DNA of 32,706 bases, from NCBI GenBank assembly GCA_016929595.1, contig JAFGIN010000034.1, positions 1 to 32,706 of the forward strand, written 5' to 3'. The position numbers were made by a program, and so were the translations under genes. Shown here piece after piece: positions 3,832 through 26,659 of this stretch. The stretch is from Chitinispirillaceae bacterium (lineage in GTDB: Bacteria > Fibrobacterota > Chitinivibrionia > Chitinivibrionales > Chitinispirillaceae). Each line of letters starts with the position of its first letter. Position 1 is the stretch's first letter. Under the pieces are notes generated by a model. It was not told the origin of the DNA, made no database searches, and saw only the letters and a program-made list of their open reading frames with translations.

Positions 3832-5187
3832 TTAATAACTGTTTTTAGTTCTTCTACCGGAAATTTTATATTTAAGAATCAGCGAATTTCTTTTCCGGTT
3901 ATATGATTCCCGTTTTGATTCAGGGAGTTCATCAACTGTTCCTTCTGTAAATCCTATATGTAAAAACCAGTCTGCAGTTTGCGTGGTGAGGACAAAGACT
4001 TGTTTGAGTTTGAGCTTTACGGCTTTTTCGATAAGGTATAAGATTATTTGTTTGCCGATTCCTGCCCCTGCGTACATTTCATCAACAACGATTGCAGCGA
4101 TTTCACCCAGTTTTTCGGGGTAGACATGAAGGGCACCGCAGGCGTGAACGGTTCCGTCAATTTCGTAGACTGTATAATCGTTAACTTTTTCTTCCAGGTC
4201 TGCAGCGGTTCTGGGTACCAGAACTTTGTCTTCAATAACAGGTTGCATAAGCCGCAGTACTTCTGAAATGTCGGAAATCGTCATCGCTCTGAAATTTTCG
4301 TGCTGGTTTGAATAGATCATTGTACCAAAGCCGCGGTTAGAAAAGATCTCCTTGAGTATCATCCCCTCGGCCCGACCATCGATAATATGGACGCGATGGA
4401 CACCATTTATGCATGCCCTGTAAGCAAAAGAGATCATTTCGAGCAGTTCTCCGGGATGGGCTTCAGTGTTGAGGTCGATGAACTGGCCGGCCTGTTCTAC
4501 TGTCAATTGCGACACCATACCATCACTTTGCGCTATATTTGCCGGAAGTTTATAATCGTTACCCCGGATTCCATCCTGATCGGTAACAAAGAATAATTTC
4601 GTCGCTTTTACTTCTGTGCTGATATTGAAAGCCAGTTCATTGGATGAGAGGTTGTATGGTTTTCCCGTTGCACTCCATCCTATGTTGGGGAAGATAGGGA
4701 TGAGATTATCGGAGAGAACATTCTTTATGATATCGATTTTAAGCTTTTCCACGATACCGGAGCTTTGAAAATCGATTCCATCCCGAACCCCGATACTACG
4801 GGCTCTGACCCAGTTTCCGATTACCGCGTCGGCTCCATTTTCAGCAAGAAGAGTCATCAGTTTGTTTGAAACATCAAAGGCAGCCATTTTAATAAAAGGG
4901 ATCGCTTCTGGTGGAGAGACCCGTGTACCATTGATTGTCGGGCAATCGATTTTGTAGGTTGCCAGGACCTCATCGATCCGGTTTCGTGCTCCAGGTACGA
5001 GGATTACGCGGATCCCCATTTGATGAAGAAGGACAATATCTTTAATGAGTATAGGGAAAAATTGATTTGCGATTAATGTTCCATCAATTTTAATGACAAA
5101 AATCTGATCCTTGAACTGATTTATATAGCCGAAAGCCTGTCGGATTATACCAACCTGTTCTTTCAAACGGGATTTATCCATCTGCAT
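3832..5187 (-). CDS. argA: Amino-acid N-acetyltransferase (N-acetylglutamate synthase)
   Basis: The 451-residue protein carries out the first step of arginine synthesis, acetyl-CoA + L-glutamate to N-acetylglutamate, in the cytoplasm. Residues about 25-295 form an amino-acid-kinase fold (QIFVIKIDGTLI, GIRVILVPGARNRID, NLIPIFPNIGWSATGKPYNL, KLFFVTDQDGI). Residues about 300-440 form a GNAT acetyltransferase domain with the acetyl-CoA loop IVVDEMYAGAGIGKQII. This two-domain order and length match classical ArgA (about 440 residues) rather than a plain acetylglutamate kinase, which lacks the GNAT half. The kinase-half loop reads IDG where acetylglutamate kinases have a Gly-Gly, in keeping with a domain used for binding and regulation rather than phosphorylation. 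A second Met at residue 3 is an alternative start. No other arg gene is in the window. Confidence 0.9.
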   Translation of the reverse strand: MQMDKSRLKEQVGIIRQAFGYINQFKDQIFVIKIDGTLIANQFFPILIKDIVLLHQMGIRVILVPGARNRIDEVLATYKIDCPTINGTRVSPPEAIPFIKMAAFDVSNKLMTLLAENGADAVIGNWVRARSIGVRDGIDFQSSGIVEKLKIDIIKNVLSDNLIPIFPNIGWSATGKPYNLSSNELAFNISTEVKATKLFFVTDQDGIRGNDYKLPANIAQSDGMVSQLTVEQAGQFIDLNTEAHPGELLEMISFAYRACINGVHRVHIIDGRAEGMILKEIFSNRGFGTMIYSNQHENFRAMTISDISEVLRLMQPVIEDKVLVPRTAADLEEKVNDYTVYEIDGTVHACGALHVYPEKLGEIAAIVVDEMYAGAGIGKQIILYLIEKAVKLKLKQVFVLTTQTADWFLHIGFTEGTVDELPESKRESYNRKRNSLILKYKISGRRTKNSY

Positions 5188-5218
5188 TGTATGTCTGACT
5201 CCTGATTCTGGTCTGGTG

Positions 5219-5287
5219 ATAATATAGTGTAAAATAGTATTTGGGCTGCCTCTTGAAGGTATCTTGTAATCAATTATAATATAGTGT
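5219..5287. repeat. 12-bp direct repeat in the divergent argA/operon promoter region
   Basis: ATAATATAGTGT occurs at 5219-5230 and again, identically, at 5276-5287, 57 bases apart start to start. The right copy overlaps the -10 element proposed for the seven-gene operon; the left copy lies near the argA start side. Either a shared operator or a duplicated promoter element would produce this pattern. Confidence 0.5.
5253..5280 (+). promoter_or_regulatory. Sigma-70-type promoter of the seven-gene operon
   Basis: TTGAAG (5253-5258), a 16-base spacer and a consensus TATAAT (5275-5280) lie just upstream of the ATG at 5300. Transcription would begin about 12 bases before the start codon, giving a very short leader. 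There is no strong Shine-Dalgarno sequence before the ATG, which fits a near-leaderless message. Confidence 0.5.
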
Positions 5288-5299
5288 TATACTCAAAGC

Positions 5300-7885
5300 A
5301 TGGAAATCCTTTTACCACGGGTACAATCGTACAAAACTCAACTATTTATACTGTTGCTTGTCTGTTTTGCATCTGCCATTCTTGGTGACAGCACTGCTGA
5401 AGCACTTCTTCTGGCCAACTACGATTCATCAATAATACCAGGTATGTTCCTGTTCAATGCCGCCGGGCTGTTTGTAATTTCATCTGTTATGATGATCGTT
5501 GTTGACAATGTAGATAGAGGCGCATTCTTTCTGAAAGGATTACTATTGCATGGTGTCATGTTAGTGGTGTTCAGAGTATTCATTTCCTTAAAGCTTTCGT
5601 TCATATATCCAGTTCTTTTTACTTATGCCTATATCACTAAGATACTTCTGTTCATGATATTCTGGACTCTTGCAAATGACCTTATCGATTCGCGCAAAGC
5701 TGGAAAAGAGTTTCCCCTGATAGCAGCGGGCGGGACACTTGGAGCGGTAATGGTCTCCTTCTCAATTCCTTCAATACTAAAAATCTTTGATGCAGAGAGT
5801 TTGCTGCTTGTCTGGACCATACTTATTGTTATGGCAGTTCTTATTTTTTTGTTAGTAAAAAGACAGGTCGGAGGAAATTTTAAACCTCATACCGAAAGAG
5901 CGCGCAGGAGAGTGTTCTGTATTATAAAAGATATAGGTTTGTTACGCAAAGAGCCGCTTCTTTGTAATATGGGAATACTTTACTTCCTGTTGTTTTTTCT
6001 GATGCTCAACCAGCATTTTATGTTTTACACACAGTTAAGAAAACAGTTCATTACGGCTTCAGGTGTAGCATCGTTTCTGGGGTATTTCAACGGCTTAAGC
6101 ATGGTAGTTACATTTATTTTGCAAATGACCGTTTCCGGAGCAATACTGAAGCACTTTGGTTCTGCCCGATCGATGCTTCTGGTGCCATCACTATTTACAC
6201 TGTTTTTTTTCAGTCTGTTAATCACATCGGTCGTAAGCGGCACTTCAACAATGCTCTTCAGCGCTGTTATTGTTGGGGGTATGGGGGTTCGAATTGCTTT
6301 TTTTGATTCCTTTTTCTCTCCAAACTTCCAGATTTTTTTCTCGAGTCTTCCTCAGGAGATCCGGGGAAGGGGAAAATTAACCATGGAAGGTGTTGTTAAA
6401 CCATGCGCGATGGTACTGAGCGGCATCTGGCTTTTATGGGCAGGAAACCTGTTGTCTGTACCGGTACAGTCAGGCATTTTATTGGTGACTGCAGTTCTTG
6501 CGATCTGGCAAACCCTTCGTATCAGAAACCGTTATGCAGAGAGTCTAACCAATTATCTGACCGGGTTTTATGGGAAAAAGATATCCGGAGTTGAGATGAC
6601 GGATTTATGTAACAAACCTGAAGTAATACGGAATCTTGGGGAGCGGTTGCATCGGGAGGAATGGGAGATTAAAAAATTTATTATTGAATTGCTGGCTTCA
6701 TCAGGGCTTTCCGATGCAACCACAATTTTGATTGATTTTTATCAGCGGAGTGATTCTCGGAGTAGATCGATGCTGCTTGCATCCATTCATGGTACCAGAC
6801 AGCAGGGGTTAAAAGAGCTTGTAGAAAAGTCACTCCTGGACAGTGATGGAAGAGTTGTAGCGAATGCTGTTCTTGCAATGGCGGGGCTTTCATCGGAAAC
6901 GTTGATGAATCATGTTGATAGATTACTCAAGCATGGGAGTGCCAGAGTTCGCGCAAATACTATCTTAGCTGCATGGCACTTTTCAGATGAAACAAGGCGT
7001 ATGCAGTTGATGGGGTATATTTACAAAATGCTCTATGATAAGTTTCCGGACGAATCTTCAAGCGCACTTTTTGCACTTGGTGAAATGCAGGGTAATGTGC
7101 CGACACAGCTTTTGCTTGAATTTGTAAGGTTTTTCAAATCCGGTATTACAGAATTTCCATCAGTGTTTAAACAATCCGTATGTGCTCTAGGTAAAAAAAA
7201 ATGTGTGGAGTCAGCAGACTTGTTACTTCAACTATCCGGTACAGCAAAAAAAATGCAGAAAAATGAGATTGTTAAAGCCATGGGAGGAATACTGGCTGAA
7301 TTAAATTATGAACAGCTTTGCTCTCTTTCTTTTGCTACAGATTATTATTTGTTCAATATAATTGTTAATGCAAATCACCTGTCGGGAAAAGTAATCGATG
7401 ATGCGTGGCGTAAACATCTGAAAAACGCTGCAGAGAGGGAGATGCGTGATGTTATTGCATCTATGGATAAATTGGTCGCGCTGCTGTCTCTGAGAGGAAT
7501 GGGTGCTGAGCTTCTAAGATACGCCATACTTGAGGAGAATATTGATATACGGATCAATACGCTTGTTTTAATAGCATCTCTTGTTGACATGTCAGGTAAT
7601 ATCCGTAAGATTGTACCTCGCCTTTTCCACACAAATGCGCATATGAGAGCAAGAGCTTTGGAGGTTCTTGACAATACTGGCGATTACAAACTAAACCGGA
7701 GTATCATGAATATTCTCGATAACAGAAGATCACTCAGCGGCAGGCTGGAAGAAGGCGGATGTGCTGACAAAGAAAGTAGGAATATGGAACTGGCAAAACA
7801 GTATTGTAACGATTCCAATGAGTGGGTAGCACAATGCGCGAAATATTTTCAGTTAAAAGAAAAATTGGTCGGGAGTAGAGAATGA
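5300..7885 (+). CDS. 12-TM nucleotide-transporter-like protein with C-terminal HEAT repeats
   Basis: This 861-residue protein opens the operon. Residues about 14-408 hold twelve hydrophobic helices in two sets of six separated by a basic loop (KRQVGGNFKPHTERARRR). The pattern resembles the ATP/ADP-antiporter (NTT) branch of major-facilitator-like carriers; LIDSRKAGKEFPLIAAGGTLGA after helix 4 fits that group. From about residue 430 to the end the protein is soluble and built of helical pairs with repeated VVANAVLAMAGLS- and VRANTILAAWHF-like segments, i.e. HEAT-type repeats. Similar bacterial proteins often also carry a cyclic-nucleotide-binding domain; here that domain is the separate next gene, which overlaps by ATGA. 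Transport of nucleotides is not shown; a signalling scaffold built on a carrier fold is equally possible. Confidence 0.65.
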   Translation: MEILLPRVQSYKTQLFILLLVCFASAILGDSTAEALLLANYDSSIIPGMFLFNAAGLFVISSVMMIVVDNVDRGAFFLKGLLLHGVMLVVFRVFISLKLSFIYPVLFTYAYITKILLFMIFWTLANDLIDSRKAGKEFPLIAAGGTLGAVMVSFSIPSILKIFDAESLLLVWTILIVMAVLIFLLVKRQVGGNFKPHTERARRRVFCIIKDIGLLRKEPLLCNMGILYFLLFFLMLNQHFMFYTQLRKQFITASGVASFLGYFNGLSMVVTFILQMTVSGAILKHFGSARSMLLVPSLFTLFFFSLLITSVVSGTSTMLFSAVIVGGMGVRIAFFDSFFSPNFQIFFSSLPQEIRGRGKLTMEGVVKPCAMVLSGIWLLWAGNLLSVPVQSGILLVTAVLAIWQTLRIRNRYAESLTNYLTGFYGKKISGVEMTDLCNKPEVIRNLGERLHREEWEIKKFIIELLASSGLSDATTILIDFYQRSDSRSRSMLLASIHGTRQQGLKELVEKSLLDSDGRVVANAVLAMAGLSSETLMNHVDRLLKHGSARVRANTILAAWHFSDETRRMQLMGYIYKMLYDKFPDESSSALFALGEMQGNVPTQLLLEFVRFFKSGITEFPSVFKQSVCALGKKKCVESADLLLQLSGTAKKMQKNEIVKAMGGILAELNYEQLCSLSFATDYYLFNIIVNANHLSGKVIDDAWRKHLKNAAEREMRDVIASMDKLVALLSLRGMGAELLRYAILEENIDIRINTLVLIASLVDMSGNIRKIVPRLFHTNAHMRARALEVLDNTGDYKLNRSIMNILDNRRSLSGRLEEGGCADKESRNMELAKQYCNDSNEWVAQCAKYFQLKEKLVGSRE

Positions 7886-8346
7886 GTGATTCTATATCGA
7901 TATTGGAGAATATCCTGGTTTTAAAAAAAAGTGCACTGTTTTCGATGGTATCTACAAGTGATTTGCGTGCTGTTGCAGCTGTGATCACTGAGATGAAATA
8001 TAACGCAGGAGAATTGATTATCAAGGAGAAGGATATCGGTGACTCTATGTATCTGATACGCAGCGGCTCCGTTCAAATTGTAAAGAAAAAGCGTGAAAAC
8101 AGCACCTGTATTCTTGCGGAACTTCACAAAGGGGAGTGCTTTGGAGAAATGTCGGCAATTGATGAAGAAGTACGTTCTGCTGATGTATATGCAAAAGAGT
8201 CTTGTATTCTAATGAAATTATGTAAGGATGATCTTTTCGAGGTAATTCTGGATTGCCCTCATATCGGTATTGAATTGCTTAAGATTTTTATCAAACGATT
8301 ACGTGATGCAAATGAAATAATCGAGAAAATAAATGAGAAGAATTAA
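7882..8346 (+). CDS. Stand-alone cyclic-nucleotide-binding domain protein
   Basis: The 154 residues form one Crp-type cNMP-binding beta-barrel with no DNA-binding helix-turn-helix after it. The phosphate-binding cassette is visible as CFGEMSAIDEEVRSADVYA: Gly88-Glu89 would contact the ribose and Arg98-Ser99 the cyclic phosphate, so binding of cAMP or cGMP is plausible. The strand NAGELIIKEKDIGDSMYLIRSGSV is typical of the fold. It starts inside the stop of the HEAT-carrier gene (ATGA) and overlaps the next gene by 14 bases, so all three are probably made together. With no HTH it likely acts by binding a partner, most simply the HEAT protein. Confidence 0.85.
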   Translation: MSDSISILENILVLKKSALFSMVSTSDLRAVAAVITEMKYNAGELIIKEKDIGDSMYLIRSGSVQIVKKKRENSTCILAELHKGECFGEMSAIDEEVRSADVYAKESCILMKLCKDDLFEVILDCPHIGIELLKIFIKRLRDANEIIEKINEKN

Positions 8347-9775
8347 TTATATTATTTCAATGGTTGTATGTCCCCTTTTACTCATAAATTGCGGACCCGT
8401 TTACAGAATGGATGTGTTAATACAGATGATCGATGCACAGGAGCGATATTTCAGCAATCAAATTGTTCCGCCATTCGAAAAAAAACAGAATGCCGATATA
8501 AATGTCATATCTTATGGATCTGTAGACAGTCTGGAATTTGAACTGCTTTCACATCGCAATACTGCCTGTCTGGTCAAGGTTCCTTTTGATAAAAGCAGAT
8601 CTGTAATGAGTGAAAAATATTTGATACCGCTCGATTCGATTCTTACCCCGGTGGAATCAGCCAGGTTTAAAGATACCTATCTGCTTACATCTCTTGGCAG
8701 CTCAAAGGGCAGACAGTTTCTGATACCAAGAAAGTTTGAAACCAGAATTATGGTGTACTCTAAAAGTAAAGTACTTGATGCCGTTTCCATGTGGAGAGGG
8801 TATACAGAACAAATTGATAGCGTGCTACAGATGTATAATTCCTATGGGCTTCCATCAACATACATTTTAGAAGAGGATCCGGAAAAATGGGATTACTATG
8901 ATATTTTTGTAGTTGGCTGGATCTGGGCACATTCTCTTTATGACGGAGAGTTACATCCGCGGGTTGCACACCGGGGGCGGCGTTATTCGGGGACGGCACT
9001 CAGAATGATCGATCGTGTTTACCAGCTTAATGGTGATTCATCTGATGTTGTATCCCTTTGTGGAGACCCGCTTTATGATGCGATCCACTGGGAAGCGCTT
9101 TATGCTGCTGCAGGTATTTACAATCAGGATATGTGGGAAAAGTCCTGGAATGGAAGCGGGGTATGGCAGGGGTTTGCAGATGGAAAAGTTTTTCTTTCTT
9201 TCATGACTCAGCTGGATTGTTTTTTTCTTCATGGAACTGGCAATGACAGTATAAAAGGGTATTTCAGAGATCCTGCCGATATGGGTGTTGCGACAATGCC
9301 TATTGGATGTTCTGTAGAGCTTGATGCTACAGGTGTACCCTCGAGAGTTGGACGGAAATCAATTACGACCGGAGGATGGTGGTGGGCTATACCAAAGGGG
9401 TGCTCCAATCCCAGGGTGGGATTTGCATTGGCATCACATATTACCTCTACATCGACTCAGATACAGGAGTGTTCGCGATTTGGTATGGTTCCGGTGCGAA
9501 AAGATATTCTCGGTGATATGATGATGCTTTTTGGTGGTGGATGGATAAGTGAGATTTATGATGTATCGTTCAAGCAATTGATGTATAATGGTCATACAAC
9601 GATTCCATCAAATGAGAACTTTAATCTTATATCAAACATGTATCTGGATATCTGGTTTGATATAGTGGTAAATAAAAACTGGTCAGAACAAACACCGTAT
9701 CCTTCAAGAGCTTATATTCGTAACCGGATCGAAACTGAATATGCCTCAAAAATACAGGGATGCATGACACGATAG
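8333..9775 (+). CDS. Extracellular solute-binding lipoprotein (family 1-like)
   Basis: The 480-residue protein starts with a short basic end, a hydrophobic core and LLINC, giving a lipidated Cys20. The mature part follows the layout of ABC-importer family 1 (maltose/sugar type) binding proteins: RYFSNQIVPPFEKKQNADINVISYG at the first lobe, YDIFVVGWIWAH, a middle segment FADGKVFLSFMTQ, then GVATMPIG and SITTGGWWWAIPKGCSNPRVGFALASHITS, which is the ligand-cleft and hinge signature of the family (substrate protein: G-GGW-wai-k). No permease or ATPase gene lies nearby, so it is unlikely to feed a local importer. Its place in this operon suggests a sensing role at the cell surface or in the periplasm. 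The ligand is unknown. Confidence 0.75.
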   Translation: MRRINYIISMVVCPLLLINCGPVYRMDVLIQMIDAQERYFSNQIVPPFEKKQNADINVISYGSVDSLEFELLSHRNTACLVKVPFDKSRSVMSEKYLIPLDSILTPVESARFKDTYLLTSLGSSKGRQFLIPRKFETRIMVYSKSKVLDAVSMWRGYTEQIDSVLQMYNSYGLPSTYILEEDPEKWDYYDIFVVGWIWAHSLYDGELHPRVAHRGRRYSGTALRMIDRVYQLNGDSSDVVSLCGDPLYDAIHWEALYAAAGIYNQDMWEKSWNGSGVWQGFADGKVFLSFMTQLDCFFLHGTGNDSIKGYFRDPADMGVATMPIGCSVELDATGVPSRVGRKSITTGGWWWAIPKGCSNPRVGFALASHITSTSTQIQECSRFGMVPVRKDILGDMMMLFGGGWISEIYDVSFKQLMYNGHTTIPSNENFNLISNMYLDIWFDIVVNKNWSEQTPYPSRAYIRNRIETEYASKIQGCMTR

Positions 9776-9799
9776 TTCAATTGTCGAACATTATGGTAA

Positions 9800-11371
9800 A
9801 TGGGAATGATGGAGAGAAAAGAAGAAAACAGACCGGAAGAACCGGTTGAATTGCCTGATGATGATGTTCTTTTCAGGTTGAGAGAACGTTTTGAGAATGT
9901 GCCGGATGATATCGATGCGGCATTGAGGCTGGCGGCTTTCTATGTGAACCGCGGATGGTATAATCAGGCTAAAGATGTTTTTCAAAACGCACTGAAAATA
10001 AATAGTGAAGATTTTACACTCCTGCTCGAATATGGAAATACCTGTTTTAAAAAAGGTGAGCTTTCTGAAGCGGGTTCTTCATTCAGGACATTGACACAGC
10101 TTCGTCCCGACAAAATTGAAGCCTGGAACAATCTTGGGATTGTGCAAATACAAGAGGGAGATCTTGAAGGTGCACGGGATTCTTTTGAAAAAGTGATCCA
10201 GATTGAACCTGAAAATGCAGGTGCACTTCTTAACATGGGAAATTATCATACCGGTAAAGGTAATCATGAAGATGCGCTTGTGTATTTTAAAAAAGCTGTA
10301 GAGGTGATGCCGGGTTTTGCTGATGGATGGTACAATCTCGGCAATACATTAATGGCACTTGATAAGTTCGATGAAGCCATTGGTGCTTTCGAAAAAGCAC
10401 TAAAATACAGGGGTGATTTTACATCTGCACTTAAAAACCTCGGTTTTGTATATGAACGTCAGAAAAAAATTGAGGATGCGCAACGCTGCTACGCCAGAGC
10501 AATTGAATTAAACAAGGCAGATCCATCTTTACGGATAAACCTTGGAGGTATATACCTTCTTCAGGACAGGATAGATGATGCAAGGGAGTGCTTTTTTAAA
10601 GCGGTTCGTCTTGCACCGCAGGATACCGGAGGGTGGCTTGGTTTGCGGGAGGTGGCACTCATAAACGGCGATATTCAGACTTTTAATCGTGCGACACTCG
10701 CGGTTTTACCCCGGCTCAGTGAATCCATTATCGCTGAATCCATAGAGGTATTATTTGATCTTGATCATAAGAGTGCCGCAGATGAGATAGTGCAACAGAT
10801 CGATCGTCTTGGTAAAACTGGTGATCTGCTTGATGCGCAGAGGATTTGTTGTTATTTTTTACATGATGGCGACAGCGAAAAAAACAGATCCATTTTTATC
10901 AGGTTACTGGCAAGTCAGTCGCAGGATCATCGGATACTGAAAAGTCTTGCGCGATATGCATATCTTTCAGGAAAATATGATCAGGTCGTTGATCTTGTCA
11001 ATAAAATTGATAAGCCGGATGCTTACGCATATAGTATTTTATGGAGATCTCTGATCGAACAGAAAAAAGATGCGCAGGCACGCAGGCTGATACAGAATTA
11101 TATTAGAGAGTATCCACAGAATTCTGAATGCTGGTATCTTCTGGCGTTAATTGAAGCTAAAAGAGGACACCGTATCAGAACTGAAAAATTTTTAATTCGT
11201 GCGCTTGAGAATGGTTTTTCCAATCTGGAAGAATCGAAACGGGAGCCGATGATGAAAGAGATCCTTGATTCTATAAAACAAAAACAGGAAGCTCCATTGA
11301 GTGATGGTGACGCAGCACAAACAGCTGCGGAACATTCTGGGAGTGAGGATGGAAAGCAGGTGGTTATATGA
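9800..11371 (+). CDS. TPR-repeat protein
   Basis: The 523-residue protein has an acidic start and then seven uninterrupted 34-residue tetratricopeptide repeats (about residues 38-275), with typical cores such as AWNNLGIVQIQEGDLEGARDSFEKVIQIEP and GWYNLGNTLMALDKFDEAIGAFEKAL. Residues 290-480 hold weaker helical repeats, including SECWYLLALIEAKRGHRIRTEKFLIRALENG. There is no signal peptide or membrane helix, so it is probably cytoplasmic and binds partner proteins. ATG codons at 9800, 9806 and 9809 are all possible starts. The gene follows the lipoprotein gene by 24 bases and overlaps the next by ATGA. A scaffold role in the operon's complex is inferred. Confidence 0.85.
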   Translation: MGMMERKEENRPEEPVELPDDDVLFRLRERFENVPDDIDAALRLAAFYVNRGWYNQAKDVFQNALKINSEDFTLLLEYGNTCFKKGELSEAGSSFRTLTQLRPDKIEAWNNLGIVQIQEGDLEGARDSFEKVIQIEPENAGALLNMGNYHTGKGNHEDALVYFKKAVEVMPGFADGWYNLGNTLMALDKFDEAIGAFEKALKYRGDFTSALKNLGFVYERQKKIEDAQRCYARAIELNKADPSLRINLGGIYLLQDRIDDARECFFKAVRLAPQDTGGWLGLREVALINGDIQTFNRATLAVLPRLSESIIAESIEVLFDLDHKSAADEIVQQIDRLGKTGDLLDAQRICCYFLHDGDSEKNRSIFIRLLASQSQDHRILKSLARYAYLSGKYDQVVDLVNKIDKPDAYAYSILWRSLIEQKKDAQARRLIQNYIREYPQNSECWYLLALIEAKRGHRIRTEKFLIRALENGFSNLEESKREPMMKEILDSIKQKQEAPLSDGDAAQTAAEHSGSEDGKQVVI

Positions 11372-12549
11372 TGCGAAATGAGCGTCTCAATGAAACATTG
11401 TTCCGGGTTGATAATGGATCGGTAGATTCAAACAAATTCTATACAATACTTCTTGATGCGAAAGCTGCCGCAGTTTCCGAGAATATGTGTGATATCACCG
11501 AGAAATTGCTGATTCGGGAAAAAGACAACGCAAAAACAGCACTTGATCATCTCTGGAATCTAAAGAAAAATCTCTTCAAAGAAAAGAATGGAACGATAGA
11601 TCTGCTTATAAACTTTTATCAGGATAAGATGGATGTGCTTCGAAACAAAGAGGAACATCTCAAAAAGATAAGCCGTGATTCCCGCAATCTGCTGGAAGAA
11701 AGACGGAAACATGATGAAGAAATTGCTAATGTTAAGCAACAGGTACAAGAGTGCACAAAAGAACTCAACGAGCTCAATGCCAAGTTGGACAAATTGAAAA
11801 CACGGGAGCAGGAGCTTCAGTTGATTGATATGCAGCTCGGAAAAGAACTAAATAATAATGAAAACGAAATTCTAAATGGTCTCTATGAGATTATTCTTCC
11901 CGGGCAGGGTTTTTTCAAAAATGAGTGTGATGCTCCAACCGATGAAGAAATCGCTGCATCTTCAGTTGAAAATGCAGTTCAGCAAAGCCCGTTTGTTCAA
12001 ATCAGCGATACGGAAGTCAGTCCTGAGAACGAGTCAATGGATAAATCGCAAGATGAAGTTGATGATACTAATCTTATGTCGAATGTGCCTCGATCAGTAC
12101 TTGATCTGGCGTTCGAGCAGCCTCCGTATCCTAAATCTGTTGTAAAGACGACCGGCGGAAGGATCATCGGTGAATATTATTATGATTCTTCTGTGTATAA
12201 GAATGAACGTCATTACATCTTTAATAGTCGCTTTTTTTGTGAACATCTTTACGAAAATTTTAAATTATTGAAACAGCGTTTCGAACAGAGTATCTATGCA
12301 GAAATACTACAGATGGTCGAAGATGCATCAAAGCGAATAAGTGACAATGAAAATCTTCATTTTGAGGTTTCTACAAACGAAATTTTGAATGATAAAACCC
12401 TCAAACAACTCAGGCTTGATGCCAAAGCGCGTTCTGTTGACGAAATAGAAAAATTCTGTACACGGCTAAAAGCAAAAATCGATGCACTGGGTGTTAATTA
12501 CAGAATACTGCTTCAGGAACAGATGCTGAGGTGTATCGGTAAAAAGTAA
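11368..12549 (+). CDS. Coiled-coil protein of unknown function
   Basis: I do not recognise this 393-residue protein. It has no signal peptide or membrane segment. Residues about 85-165 form a long charged coiled coil (heptads through ELNELNAKLDKLKTREQEL). An acidic, low-complexity linker (about 187-250) follows, then a predicted folded C-terminal part starting near residue 255 with KSVVKTTGGRIIGEYYYDSSV. It begins within the stop of the TPR gene (ATGATG; either ATG could be used) and shares one base with the next start. With its placement between a TPR protein and a membrane-bound regulator, an adaptor role is reasonable but unproven. Confidence 0.7.
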   Translation: MMRNERLNETLFRVDNGSVDSNKFYTILLDAKAAAVSENMCDITEKLLIREKDNAKTALDHLWNLKKNLFKEKNGTIDLLINFYQDKMDVLRNKEEHLKKISRDSRNLLEERRKHDEEIANVKQQVQECTKELNELNAKLDKLKTREQELQLIDMQLGKELNNNENEILNGLYEIILPGQGFFKNECDAPTDEEIAASSVENAVQQSPFVQISDTEVSPENESMDKSQDEVDDTNLMSNVPRSVLDLAFEQPPYPKSVVKTTGGRIIGEYYYDSSVYKNERHYIFNSRFFCEHLYENFKLLKQRFEQSIYAEILQMVEDASKRISDNENLHFEVSTNEILNDKTLKQLRLDAKARSVDEIEKFCTRLKAKIDALGVNYRILLQEQMLRCIGKK

Positions 12550-13400
12550 TGATAGGGACAGTTTTACTTGTTTTAATAGCGGTCTTTACTACTGCATCGA
12601 CCGGCGCTCCCGTTGTTGCCGACAGTGCAGTTCATGTCTCCAAAGCTGATACTGCAAAAGCTGCGAAGTCCTCCGATACGCTCGTTAAAAAAAAGGGGGT
12701 ATCAAAAAAGAGTGATTCTGCTGTTAAGAAAAAAACGTCAAAAACTTCTTCAATCAAAGTGTCTTCAGCAAAGACCACCGAAAAAAAGAGTATTCCGGTT
12801 AAAAAGCAGAAAAAGGTGAAGGTTAAAAAAAGAGGAAGTATTGATCTCAGCAAGATGTTTATTGCTATCTCAAAAAAAATACCTTCAACACTTAATCTGC
12901 CGGATCACATGTTCAAATCAATAGTTGGCTTCGTTAAAAAAAACACTTTCAAGGTCGTTCTGCTTTTGTCTTTTTTGACAATAATCGTTTCCACGCTCCT
13001 GTTTTACAGACAGAGGGTAGATGGGAAACGGTTCATGACAACGACACGTCTTTCTGTAATGGATAAGGAAGTGCAGAGAGCCTGCAGATTTATCGAGAAT
13101 AGTTTTGATGATGTGTCGCTTTCAGTTGAGAAAATATGTGATGAAATGGTAACTGGAAAAGCCTTTCTTGCGGCGCTGTTTGAACGTGAACTGGGGATGA
13201 CCGTTGAAGGTTTCATTGCTCAGGTCAGGATCAACCGGGCAAAAATCTTTATTAAAAAAGAGCTTTCCGCTGATAATGCTGCAGTGGCGACAAAAACCGG
13301 CTTTAGTGATGCAAATCAGTTTATAAATACCTTCGAAAAATTGTGTGGTGTCAGTGTTGATGAATATAGAAAATCCGTTTCTGCCAATAAGAATTTTTGA
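12549..13400 (+). CDS. Membrane-anchored AraC-type DNA-binding protein with Lys-rich linker
   Basis: The 283 residues have an unusual order. Residues 1-20 are a signal-like or anchor hydrophobic stretch (MIGTVLLVLIAVFTTASTGA). Residues 25-97 are a low-complexity linker very rich in Lys, Ser and Thr. Residues about 134-153 are a membrane helix (FKVVLLLSFLTIIVSTLLFY). Residues about 174-275 match an AraC/XylS-type double helix-turn-helix: VQRACRFIENSF, then SLSVEKICDEM..FLAALFERELGMTVEGFIAQVRINRAK, then a second half TGFSDANQFINTFEKLCGVSVDEYRKS. The second half is the most conserved AraC signature. The simplest topology puts the Lys-rich part outside and the DNA-binding domain in the cytoplasm. 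The gene shares a TAATG with its upstream neighbour. The HTH is convincing; whether it binds DNA and where is unknown. Confidence 0.75.
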   Translation: MIGTVLLVLIAVFTTASTGAPVVADSAVHVSKADTAKAAKSSDTLVKKKGVSKKSDSAVKKKTSKTSSIKVSSAKTTEKKSIPVKKQKKVKVKKRGSIDLSKMFIAISKKIPSTLNLPDHMFKSIVGFVKKNTFKVVLLLSFLTIIVSTLLFYRQRVDGKRFMTTTRLSVMDKEVQRACRFIENSFDDVSLSVEKICDEMVTGKAFLAALFERELGMTVEGFIAQVRINRAKIFIKKELSADNAAVATKTGFSDANQFINTFEKLCGVSVDEYRKSVSANKNF

Positions 13401-14808
13401 ACAAAACAGAATTTATTGTTATCTTTTTTTAGTCCTTCCGTTATTTCTGCAGTTTTGTTATGCTGAGAATAAGAAAACTGTTGATCAGTGGAGAGAGTAT
13501 CTTGCACCTGATACATTAGATGTTCTGGTAAACGGAAAACGTTCAGGTGTTATGATTACTGGTTTTACCTTCGATGATACCATAGTTACATCGAATGTTT
13601 CCTTGTCTGTTTCTCAGAATGGTCAGAAACTGGTTGATCTTACAGAAAAAAGATCCTATCTGTTTGATGGCAGCCTCTCTAAAGCGTTTCAGGAGATGAA
13701 GAGTCCATCAGGAAGCAGTATCTGGGAGTTGAACAGGAGGAAAGGCGTATGGAATATAACTATCATAACTGCGGGAGTTCGGAACACTCGTATAATTTCC
13801 TCCGTGTATGAAAAACTCACTGGAACTCTTGAAATATATAAAGGGATAAAGACGAAAAGTATACATGTCGGCGATCAATGGATTGATACCCTTATTGAGC
13901 TGACATCTGGAGAAAATGTGATCACAACAACCCGATGCACCGATGTGCCATCGGAAAAAAATAAGTTCCGGTGGATCTTTGTTTCGACCAACTCATTGCA
14001 GGGCGGGGAAGAGTACAGGGAACTTGATACGAACGGTTCTTCTCTTTACCATGAGATTCCTCCGTTTGTAGCAGTTAAGAGAGGAATTTCTCCTGTCAGG
14101 AGTTCCAAAACTGAGGCGGGGTCTGCTAATCTGTTTGAGTCCTTTATGGTAAAGGTTCAGGAACCACCGATCAAAAACGGCCACACAACGGTTGTTACCG
14201 ATAGTGGTGTGACACTTGATTCCTCGGTGCTGTCAATGTACAAAAAAAACGGCCCTAGCCGGTTTCTTCTCGAATATGAGGATTGCTTTTGTAAAGATTC
14301 GGACCCTTCAAAACTCTCTGATACATCAAAAATTTATTTGAAACCCACACCGACCCTGCAAACGGATCATCCTGAAATTGTTGCGCTTGCTCAGAAATTA
14401 TCAGAAAAGCATAGTACTGTATGTCAAAAAATCGCTAATTACACCAATTATGTTTCCGCTGCGATTGAGAATCGCAATACGGCGACCTTTTCGAGTGCTG
14501 TAGAGACACTGCGTGCCGGGTTTGGTGATTGTGGAGAACATGCTGTTTTACTTGCTGCGCTTTTACGGGCATCAGGTGTACCTGCACGTGTTGTGTTTGG
14601 TCTGGTTTACATGGAATCCTTAAAGGGGTATTATGGTCACGCCTGGGTCATGGCTTTTGATGGGAAGAGATGGATTTTTACTGATCCTGCACATAATGTT
14701 TTTCCGGCTTGTTACAATCGAATTCCATTACTGGTGGATGATTCCGGGCAGCAGATGATTCATATTATTAAATTGCTGGGGAAGGTATCGATAGTGCATG
14801 AGGAGTGA
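13360..14808 (+). CDS. Exported transglutaminase-like protein
   Basis: From the ATG at 13360 the protein is 482 residues; a GTG at 13345 would add five. A membrane/signal segment (YCYLFLVLPLFLQFCYA) near residues 24-40 follows a long N-terminal tail, so export or anchoring is expected. The N-terminal two thirds are beta-rich. The last 130 residues are a transglutaminase-like (papain-fold) domain with a complete triad: Cys391 in GFGDCGEHAVLLAALLRA, His427 in GYYGHAWVMAF and Asp442 in FTDPAHN. Such domains in bacteria act as peptidases, amidases or cross-linkers. The start lies inside the AraC-type gene (41-base overlap), which implies translational coupling. It is the last gene of the operon. 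Fold and catalytic residues are secure; the substrate is not. Confidence 0.82.
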   Translation: MNIENPFLPIRIFEQNRIYCYLFLVLPLFLQFCYAENKKTVDQWREYLAPDTLDVLVNGKRSGVMITGFTFDDTIVTSNVSLSVSQNGQKLVDLTEKRSYLFDGSLSKAFQEMKSPSGSSIWELNRRKGVWNITIITAGVRNTRIISSVYEKLTGTLEIYKGIKTKSIHVGDQWIDTLIELTSGENVITTTRCTDVPSEKNKFRWIFVSTNSLQGGEEYRELDTNGSSLYHEIPPFVAVKRGISPVRSSKTEAGSANLFESFMVKVQEPPIKNGHTTVVTDSGVTLDSSVLSMYKKNGPSRFLLEYEDCFCKDSDPSKLSDTSKIYLKPTPTLQTDHPEIVALAQKLSEKHSTVCQKIANYTNYVSAAIENRNTATFSSAVETLRAGFGDCGEHAVLLAALLRASGVPARVVFGLVYMESLKGYYGHAWVMAFDGKRWIFTDPAHNVFPACYNRIPLLVDDSGQQMIHIIKLLGKVSIVHEE

Positions 14809-24850: not shown

Positions 24851-26659
24851 ATGAAACAAAAAGTGATCGAAACCAATGATATCAAGGGCTTTTATAACGA
24901 TTATGCCGTAAAATATTCTGCGCAGCTCAAAACTGTAAAACAACAGATTAATCTGATTTCCAATATTCGTCTGGCAGTAGCCCTTATTGCGATTGCGGCG
25001 TCTGTTTATACATACCGAATAGATCCATACCTTTTCTTTAGTGTCGTTGTTTCGGGGATTGTCGGTTTTTTCCTGCTGGTGTTCTACCACGAAACTCTTC
25101 ATCAGAGGAAATGCAGTATCGAAAATGTGCTTAATGTATTGCATCGCAATTTAAGCCGGTTGAGTGGAAACTGGACTGATTATTCAGATACGGGTAATGA
25201 TTTTGTCAATGATGGGCATCCGTTCAGTACTGATCTTGATATGTTTGGAAAGGGTTCTCTGTTTCAATGGCTTTCGTCAAGCCACACTTTTTATGGAAGA
25301 AAGCAGCTTGCCTCAGATATACTTCAGACACCATCAACGATCGGGCAGGTAGTCCAACAGCAGGGAGCTGTTACCGATTGTGCGAAACATTTTAATTTTC
25401 GGCTTTTATTTGAAGCGGCGGCGCTTGACATTAAGGTGCAATCAGATCAGGAGCCGCTTCTGAAATGGGCTGAAAGCGGTGTTTCCCGGTGGGCATCAAT
25501 GGTACCCTGGCTTTTTTATGCAGAACCGGTTGTCGCTGCATTGTCTGCAATAATATGCAGCGCGTTTTTAAAAATCCCGTTGATTGCTTATATTATCTAT
25601 ACAGTACATCTTTTGCTGTTCGCGCTGTTCTTCATGTCGAATAAGAAATTTATGGATCGATTTGAAGCATGCGCTGCAACAGTACTGGTATATTCACGTT
25701 TACTTTCATTAATCGAAAAGGAAGATTTTTCTGATAAAGTGCTCTTAAGATACAAAAACGACCTTGTATCAGAAAACGGAACAGTTGTAAGTAAAGAGCT
25801 TAAAAAGCTCTCACAGTTAATCTCATCCATGGAGATCAGATATAATCCACTTGGACATTTTATCGCAAATGTTGGATTGTTATGGGATTTTCGGTTACGT
25901 ATAAGTGCCGAAAACTGGAAAAAGAATAACAGTAGAAATCTGCGTAAATGGTTTGAGATTATAGGATGGTTTGAATCGGTAAATAGTTTCAGTGGTATCG
26001 CATTTGAACATCAGGATTGGCACTATCCTCAAATTACAGATGAGGCCAGGCTTTCATGTACCAATATGGGTCATCCATTAATACCTGATAACAGACGAAT
26101 AAATAACAGTTTTTCAATTAAGGATAATCAAGTCGCGATAATCACGGGGTCGAACATGTCCGGTAAGAGTACCTTTCTCAGGACGGTGGGCGTTAATATG
26201 GTTCTTGCGTACGCCGGAGCTCCTGTGTGTGGAAAAAGCATGCGTGTACCTCTTCTTAAAATATTTTCATCAATGAGAATCGGTGATGATCTATCTGGCA
26301 ATGTATCAACTTTTTATGCTGAGCTTCTAAAAATTAAAAGAATAATAGATGAAGATAAAAACGGAACACCGATACTGTTTCTCCTTGATGAACTTTTCAG
26401 AGGAACCAACTCATCAGACAGGCATGAGGGAGCTGTAGCAGTGTTGTCAAAATTAAAAAAGCCTGGGAATATTGGATTGATTTCAACACACGATCTTCAA
26501 TTATGTGAACTTGCACAAGGTGATCAAGGTGGATATGAAAACTATCATTTTACAGAAACCTACAATGAAAACGGGATCGCGTTTGACTATACACTGCGAC
26601 AAGGTCCTTCAACTACCAGAAATGCTTTGTATTTGATTAAAATGCTTGGGATTGTGTGA
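24851..26659 (+). CDS. Membrane-bound MutS-family ATPase
   Basis: The 602-residue protein has two pairs of predicted membrane helices (about residues 41-78 and 218-262) and then a C-terminal MutS ATPase domain. The ATPase is complete: Walker A GSNMSGKSTFLRT (433-445), Walker B LFLLDELFRGTNSSDRHEG (509-527), the STFYAEL segment (486-492) and the STHD histidine (547). The mismatch-recognition and connector domains of MutS are missing. Similar short, membrane-linked MutS homologues are known in several phyla but have no settled role; they are not expected to do classical mismatch repair. The ATG is preceded by AGGAAAA. No mutL is nearby. Confidence 0.85.
   Translation: MKQKVIETNDIKGFYNDYAVKYSAQLKTVKQQINLISNIRLAVALIAIAASVYTYRIDPYLFFSVVVSGIVGFFLLVFYHETLHQRKCSIENVLNVLHRNLSRLSGNWTDYSDTGNDFVNDGHPFSTDLDMFGKGSLFQWLSSSHTFYGRKQLASDILQTPSTIGQVVQQQGAVTDCAKHFNFRLLFEAAALDIKVQSDQEPLLKWAESGVSRWASMVPWLFYAEPVVAALSAIICSAFLKIPLIAYIIYTVHLLLFALFFMSNKKFMDRFEACAATVLVYSRLLSLIEKEDFSDKVLLRYKNDLVSENGTVVSKELKKLSQLISSMEIRYNPLGHFIANVGLLWDFRLRISAENWKKNNSRNLRKWFEIIGWFESVNSFSGIAFEHQDWHYPQITDEARLSCTNMGHPLIPDNRRINNSFSIKDNQVAIITGSNMSGKSTFLRTVGVNMVLAYAGAPVCGKSMRVPLLKIFSSMRIGDDLSGNVSTFYAELLKIKRIIDEDKNGTPILFLLDELFRGTNSSDRHEGAVAVLSKLKKPGNIGLISTHDLQLCELAQGDQGGYENYHFTETYNENGIAFDYTLRQGPSTTRNALYLIKMLGIV

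Follow-up and report, generated by a model that had tools for sequence, protein, structure and literature searches.

In a 32,706-nucleotide stretch of contig JAFGIN010000034.1 from a Chitinispirillaceae bacterium of the phylum Fibrobacterota (the window; contig C97 of genome G000, which is 6.6 Mb long and 95% complete), seven genes, here called A to G, form an operon that is real, deeply conserved and apparently undescribed. Its parts are of known kinds, and no paper in the library searched matched the full gene set. We tentatively favor the reading that it is a vertically inherited envelope-to-DNA signaling operon built on a solute-binding protein (SBP) that has no permease. What stands out most as new is that NTT-HEAT carriers, often with a cyclic-nucleotide-binding domain (cNBD), were paired with sugar-type SBPs repeatedly and long ago, a linkage that we examined within Fibrobacterota.

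Conservation of the operon

An earlier note on this DNA, made by a model from the letters alone, had placed seven open reading frames (ORFs) on one strand at 5300-14808 and described their overlaps and a seven-part domain make-up. The ORF coordinates confirmed number, place, strand, and overlaps (Table 1): A and B overlap by 4 nt, B and C by 14, D and E by 4, E and F by 1, and F and G by 41, with a gap of 24 nt between C and D. The F/G value assumes that G starts at the ATG at 13360; the longest possible start, a GTG at 13345, gives a larger overlap. Pfam searches agreed with the domain make-up as first described, E being without any known family.

Table 1 Genes of the operon, adjoining features, and the paralogous importer locus of the same genome. 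Coordinates are window positions unless a locus is named.
Feature	Coordinates	Strand	Description	Match
A	5300-7885	+	NTT-HEAT membrane carrier, 861 aa	
B	7882-8346	+	stand-alone cNBD, 154 aa	PF00027, 4.3e-21
C	8333-9775	+	solute-binding lipoprotein, 480 aa	SBP_bac_8 (PF13416), 2.9e-9
D	9800-11371	+	tetratricopeptide repeat (TPR) protein, 523 aa	TPR_1, 2e-45
E	11368-12549	+	coiled coil, linker, and alpha/beta C-terminal domain	
F	12549-13400	+	membrane AraC-type regulator, 283 aa	HTH_18, 2.6e-12, and transmembrane (TM) helix
G	13360-14808	+	exported transglutaminase-fold enzyme	Transglut_core, 4.2e-19
argA-type NAGS	3832-5187	-	divergent neighbor	TIGR01890, 323.7 bits (cut-off 202.85)
Shared intergenic control region	5188-5299		between argA and A	consensus matches
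Importer locus	L127:5967-15046 (G000:C49)		paralogous importer locus in the same genome	

The comparison covered 60 relatives besides the window's genome, in families labeled f1, f2, f3, f5, f6, and f7, with gene maps of about 60 loci. E is present in 31 of the 60, most of the order's larger genomes have operon-type A, and strong F matches (at least 100 bits) occur in about 31 genomes overall. Contiguous subsets of the operon, in the same order and on the same strand, were found in more than 25 genomes of f1, f2, f3, f5, and f6, with zero permutations. All seven genes stand together in G000, G025, G027, and G032 (families f1, f3, and f5). Shorter sets are ABCDEF (G008 and G028), BCDEFG (G001 and G024), CDEFG (G003, G010, and G016), DEFG (G006), DEF (G009, G015, and G018), and EF (G031), and F alone is left in G002 and G012. 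Protein identity to the window ranges from 27 to 67% across the order-keeping loci, indicating that the operon order is not recent synteny. The earlier note had named an order confined to close relatives as the outcome that would speak against it; the order proved to be retained in distant relatives, with four full sets in three families. The E tree broadly tracks kinship, with f2, f5, and f6 separate from f1; the deeper families have the fuller operon, and losses recur within f1.

Neighbors on both flanks of the operon differ between relatives, while order, strand, and near-zero spacing persist. At 21 of 23 loci, E and F touch or overlap, in most cases by 11-19 nt (spacing counts use the longest possible starts, and overlaps may be overstated), and the B-C and C-D spacings are likewise close in relatives. 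D-E spacing ranges from overlap to 326 nt, and many relatives have a gap of 150-330 nt, so a single transcript cannot be assumed there; the gap points to an additional promoter ahead of E-F-G in these relatives, although not in the window. E-F is the tightest pair and, together with D, the persistent core. G occurs in 18 genomes and always lies within the operon where E or F shares its contig; in G026 and G028, it is on a short separate contig.

An ancient pairing of carrier and SBP

A combines an ADP/ATP-carrier-like TM part (residues ~1-415) with HEAT repeats from ~438. Pfam recognizes it by weak MFS and HEAT_2 matches; HEAT_2 was found in 15 of 15 A members and TLC (PF03219) in two of the 15 (best value 0.001), the window protein not being one of them. 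With the A family profile, plastid NTT1 (9j3n) is matched at positions 98-414 (E 5.6e-4), and alpha-helical HEAT proteins are matched as well. These matches place A as a distant member of the NTT family. By alignment, B retains the Glu and Arg of the phosphate-binding cassette (FGEM...VRSA), and the G000 genome encodes a class III cyclase at another site.

NTT-HEAT with a cNBD, either fused or encoded by the next gene, is a published architecture (Major, Embley, Williams 2017, PMC5381601). A conforms to it in having an NTT-like domain and a C-terminal HEAT tail, and B in being a cNBD gene directly downstream that overlaps A; the two are fused in the paralogue at L127. In the passages of that article cited here, NTT-HEAT-cNBD proteins are described as common among bacteria, Chlamydia trachomatis and cyanobacteria being examples, and as lacking a known function; no SBP, TPR, coiled-coil, AraC, or transglutaminase partner is named there.

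C carries the lipobox LLINC. The best Protein Data Bank (PDB) folds for its AlphaFold2 (AF2) model (pLDDT 86.3) are trehalose/maltose- and cellodextrin-binding proteins (E 5e-18), pointing to an oligosaccharide-binding fold and a putative ligand of that kind. C thus has the SBP fold of CUT1-type ATP-binding cassette (ABC) importers (MalEFGK and UgpBAEC), but unlike in these, no permease or ATPase gene was found among the operon genes or the neighboring genes checked. A complete importer is encoded at the paralogous locus L127, which holds a porin-like outer-membrane protein, an NTT-HEAT-cNBD fusion, an SBP related to C (37% identity), MalF-like and MalG-like proteins, and a MalK/UgpC-like ATPase. 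More than a dozen relatives also have the ABC set, in most cases together with NTT-HEAT-cNBD, and this tie between NTT-HEAT-cNBD and an ABC importer seems unreported. The statement in the earlier note that none of the seven genes has a normal partner is not supported in that form, given the published A+B pair, the class III cyclase, and the full ABC set beside paralogues of A, B, and C. Further importer loci are L156-L167, L177, L180, L182, L183, and L191, often followed by a TPR protein; in G027 and G032, NTT-HEAT-cNBD is missing from the importer locus.

In the SBP tree, 16 ABC-linked proteins (plus L185) fall on one side of a branch with 100/99 support, and the 21 operon proteins, with other SBPs that lack an ABC neighbor, on the other. 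The ABC-linked copies likewise form one clade (100/100) in the carrier (A) tree, for which the program noted long branches. Both forms occur in G041, a genome outside the order: A-B-C without a permease at L122 and the ABC-linked form at L165. These parallel splits, together with the presence of both versions in G041, indicate that A(B) and C were duplicated jointly before the order arose. The permease-less carrier/SBP pair would have come to adjoin D-E-F-G later than this duplication.

One explanation is that C feeds the ABC permease of the paralogous locus, making the operon a satellite of that importer. The same genome indeed supplies MalF/MalG-like permeases, a UgpC/MalK-like ATPase, and a related SBP, but the split between the two SBP clades is older than the order, and we consider this explanation very unlikely. 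Moreover, C is kept without A, beside D-E-F, in six genomes, and three of these (G004, G007, and G014) also have no ABC-linked SBP of that type (a search that did not extend to the permeases). The retention of C in these three genomes fits a role for C with D-E-F.

In two A-less lineages that are separate in the E tree (G003; G004, G007, and G014), C has diverged more than E, with C identities of 35-41% versus 50-58% where A is present. This hints at a link between A and C, the events being few and not independent within lineages. The main rival to our reading builds on such a link: A-B-C would be an SBP-dependent secondary carrier, with C delivering its ligand to A and cyclic nucleotide monophosphate (cNMP) gating via B and the HEAT tail, while D-G would be a separate regulatory unit. 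SBPs can serve secondary carriers, as in the TRAP and TTT transporters. The presence of A-B-C without D-G in G041, the joint duplication of A(B) and C, and the fast change of C in the two A-less lineages all speak for this rival. It has difficulty with the six genomes that hold C beside D-E-F without A, and with family f7, where A-B has no adjacent C (L123-L125); moreover, known NTTs carry nucleotides, whereas C resembles a sugar binder. On balance, we judge it somewhat unlikely.

Other SBPs that the tree places on the permease-less side have neighbors of unrelated kinds (alanine racemase, MCP chemoreceptor, Mut7-C, and MatE; L173, L174, L175, L178, L179, and L181), showing that more orphan SBPs exist. 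In G030, a tandem duplicate of C places two SBP genes ahead of D (L176:130-3031).

The downstream genes D to G

D has many TPRs and, by inspection, no signal peptide. E consists of a coiled coil (~40-176), a disordered linker (181-249), and a conserved alpha/beta C-terminal domain (255-391; AF2). No Pfam family scored above cut-off for E, and its model had no PDB fold match at E <= 0.001. Among 84,980 named prokaryote species, E homologues were found at 24 named loci, all in Fibrobacterota (Chitinispirillales, Chitinivibrionales, and 'Fibrobacter sp.' metagenome-assembled genomes); more remote homologues may have escaped this pattern scan.

The surroundings of E elsewhere bear on another explanation, in which vertical inheritance merely holds together an ancestral neighborhood of functionally unrelated genes, with E, and perhaps D, being housekeeping or DNA-related. 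Topoisomerase VI is present in just two relatives, the outgroups G041 and G043, and in both E overlaps top6B (top6B-top6A), which hints at a housekeeping or DNA-related role; E adjoins ftsY in G034, and operon parts are lost in differing combinations. Against this stand the persistence of order, strand, and near-zero spacing at 27-57% identity while both flanks change, and the nearly constant coupling of E and F. We regard a loose neighborhood as distinctly unlikely. A general tie between E and topoisomerase VI was rejected, as the latter occurs in just two of 61 genomes. At both loci (L110:271-4245 and L112:3773-7539), the bacterial topoisomerase VI B and A genes, of a mainly archaeal family, overlap the E homologue upstream.

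F has a signal peptide-like N-terminus, a disordered periplasmic linker, a TM helix (~134-152), and a cytoplasmic AraC-type double helix-turn-helix (HTH). Hydropathy gave the same layout in 26 homologues, with a low-complexity linker of 43-146 aa and one TM helix; in the alignment, a juxtamembrane stretch (161-183) and HTH residues are conserved. The HTH_18 match covers profile positions 9-79 of 80. Like AraC/XylS regulators, F has both family HTHs in its C-terminal domain, and DNA binding is predicted; unlike in those proteins, a signal peptide, disordered linker, and TM helix replace the soluble ligand domain. The low-complexity linkers held no folded extracytoplasmic docking domain. Having no folded periplasmic sensor of its own, F needs a partner for input.

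The triad of G, Cys391-His427-Asp442, is invariant in an alignment of 14 homologues. The F linker of the window is Lys-rich (29 of 110 residues), while those of relatives are Asp/Ser/Thr-rich. The idea that this Lys-rich tail is a substrate of G was rejected, as the Lys-richness is peculiar to the window and independent of the presence of G.

Control region and neighboring genes

In about 18 relatives, the argA-type gene for N-acetylglutamate synthase (NAGS) is the divergent neighbor of whichever operon gene is leftmost (A, C, D, E, or F); two of these relatives have only F left. Such an adjacency would be expected from an ancestral position followed by internal losses. It is plausible, from gene position, that F controls argA. 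Two -10-like boxes precede A, TATAAT at 5275-5280 and TATACT at 5288-5293. The second box ends 6 nt short of the ATG, so the transcript of A may be leaderless; similar spacing of box and ATG was seen at L094 and L119. The single promoter candidate of the earlier note found no support in a consensus scan of the window (22 promoter-like sites versus 23.7 +/- 4.5 in shuffles), despite these good -10 boxes just upstream of A, and a consensus terminator scan was likewise not above shuffles. A shared operator in the NAGS/operon region was rejected: in 16 such intergenic regions compared by eye, with no motif finder run, just -10-like boxes were seen.

Elsewhere in the window, a 602-aa protein (24851-26659) is recognized by Pfam solely through a MutS ATPase domain V. 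The window as a whole held no Rfam family or tRNA. At L094:10665-14713, and similarly at L097, L099, L104, and L169, the operon is followed by a creatininase-like gene, two M16 peptidases, and folK, which are not in the window.

Discussion

We propose that an oligosaccharide is captured by lipoprotein C on the outer side of the inner membrane, and that the carrier-like A, with the cNMP-binding B, would be the membrane partner of C and add a nucleotide-state input. The cytosolic D and E would couple this input to F, which may control its own operon and probably the divergent argA, while the exported G may process or cross-link an envelope component. The ligand, the contacts, the direction of signaling, and the target genes are what we infer here.

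SBPs are used as sensors elsewhere, in the case of CuaD (PMC10384115) and in GlnH-GlnX-PknG (PMC9769921). The likeness of our operon to CuaDSR and GlnH-GlnX-PknG lies in a permease-less SBP beside a membrane signaling partner, here C with F and A. The operon nevertheless falls outside that type, since a kinase is missing and F lacks a folded domain outside the cytoplasm; the operon also lacks a response regulator, its DNA-binding output is itself membrane-bound, and it adds the carrier and cNMP parts.

Several observations weigh against the signaling reading. The NAGS adjacency may be plain synteny, and no common operator was visible by eye beside it. Transcription may be split in relatives with long D-E gaps. 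A/B, C, and G are each lost in some lineages, and a third A-less lineage (G010 and G016) retains C at 57-58% identity, so keeping C in place does not strictly require A. Of the earlier note's interpretation, the conservation of the operon and its combination of sensor-like, membrane, scaffold, and DNA-binding parts are supported, but the lineages missing A/B, C, or G mean that a single seven-protein complex is not required.

A more specific version, which we think unlikely, is a transceptor of a new kind: the permease-less oligosaccharide-binding lipoprotein would dock on the NTT-HEAT carrier, and the cytosolic HEAT/cNBD part would gate the tethered AraC regulator via the TPR and coiled-coil adaptors. 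The operon adds a membrane-tethered AraC regulator and, in E, a coiled-coil family with no known PDB fold relative. The tie of NTT-HEAT-cNBD to a sugar-type SBP at two ancient paralogous loci provides a concrete, testable functional link. If the transceptor reading were true, it would give the uncharacterized NTT-HEAT-cNBD proteins their first role, as membrane partners of solute-binding proteins.

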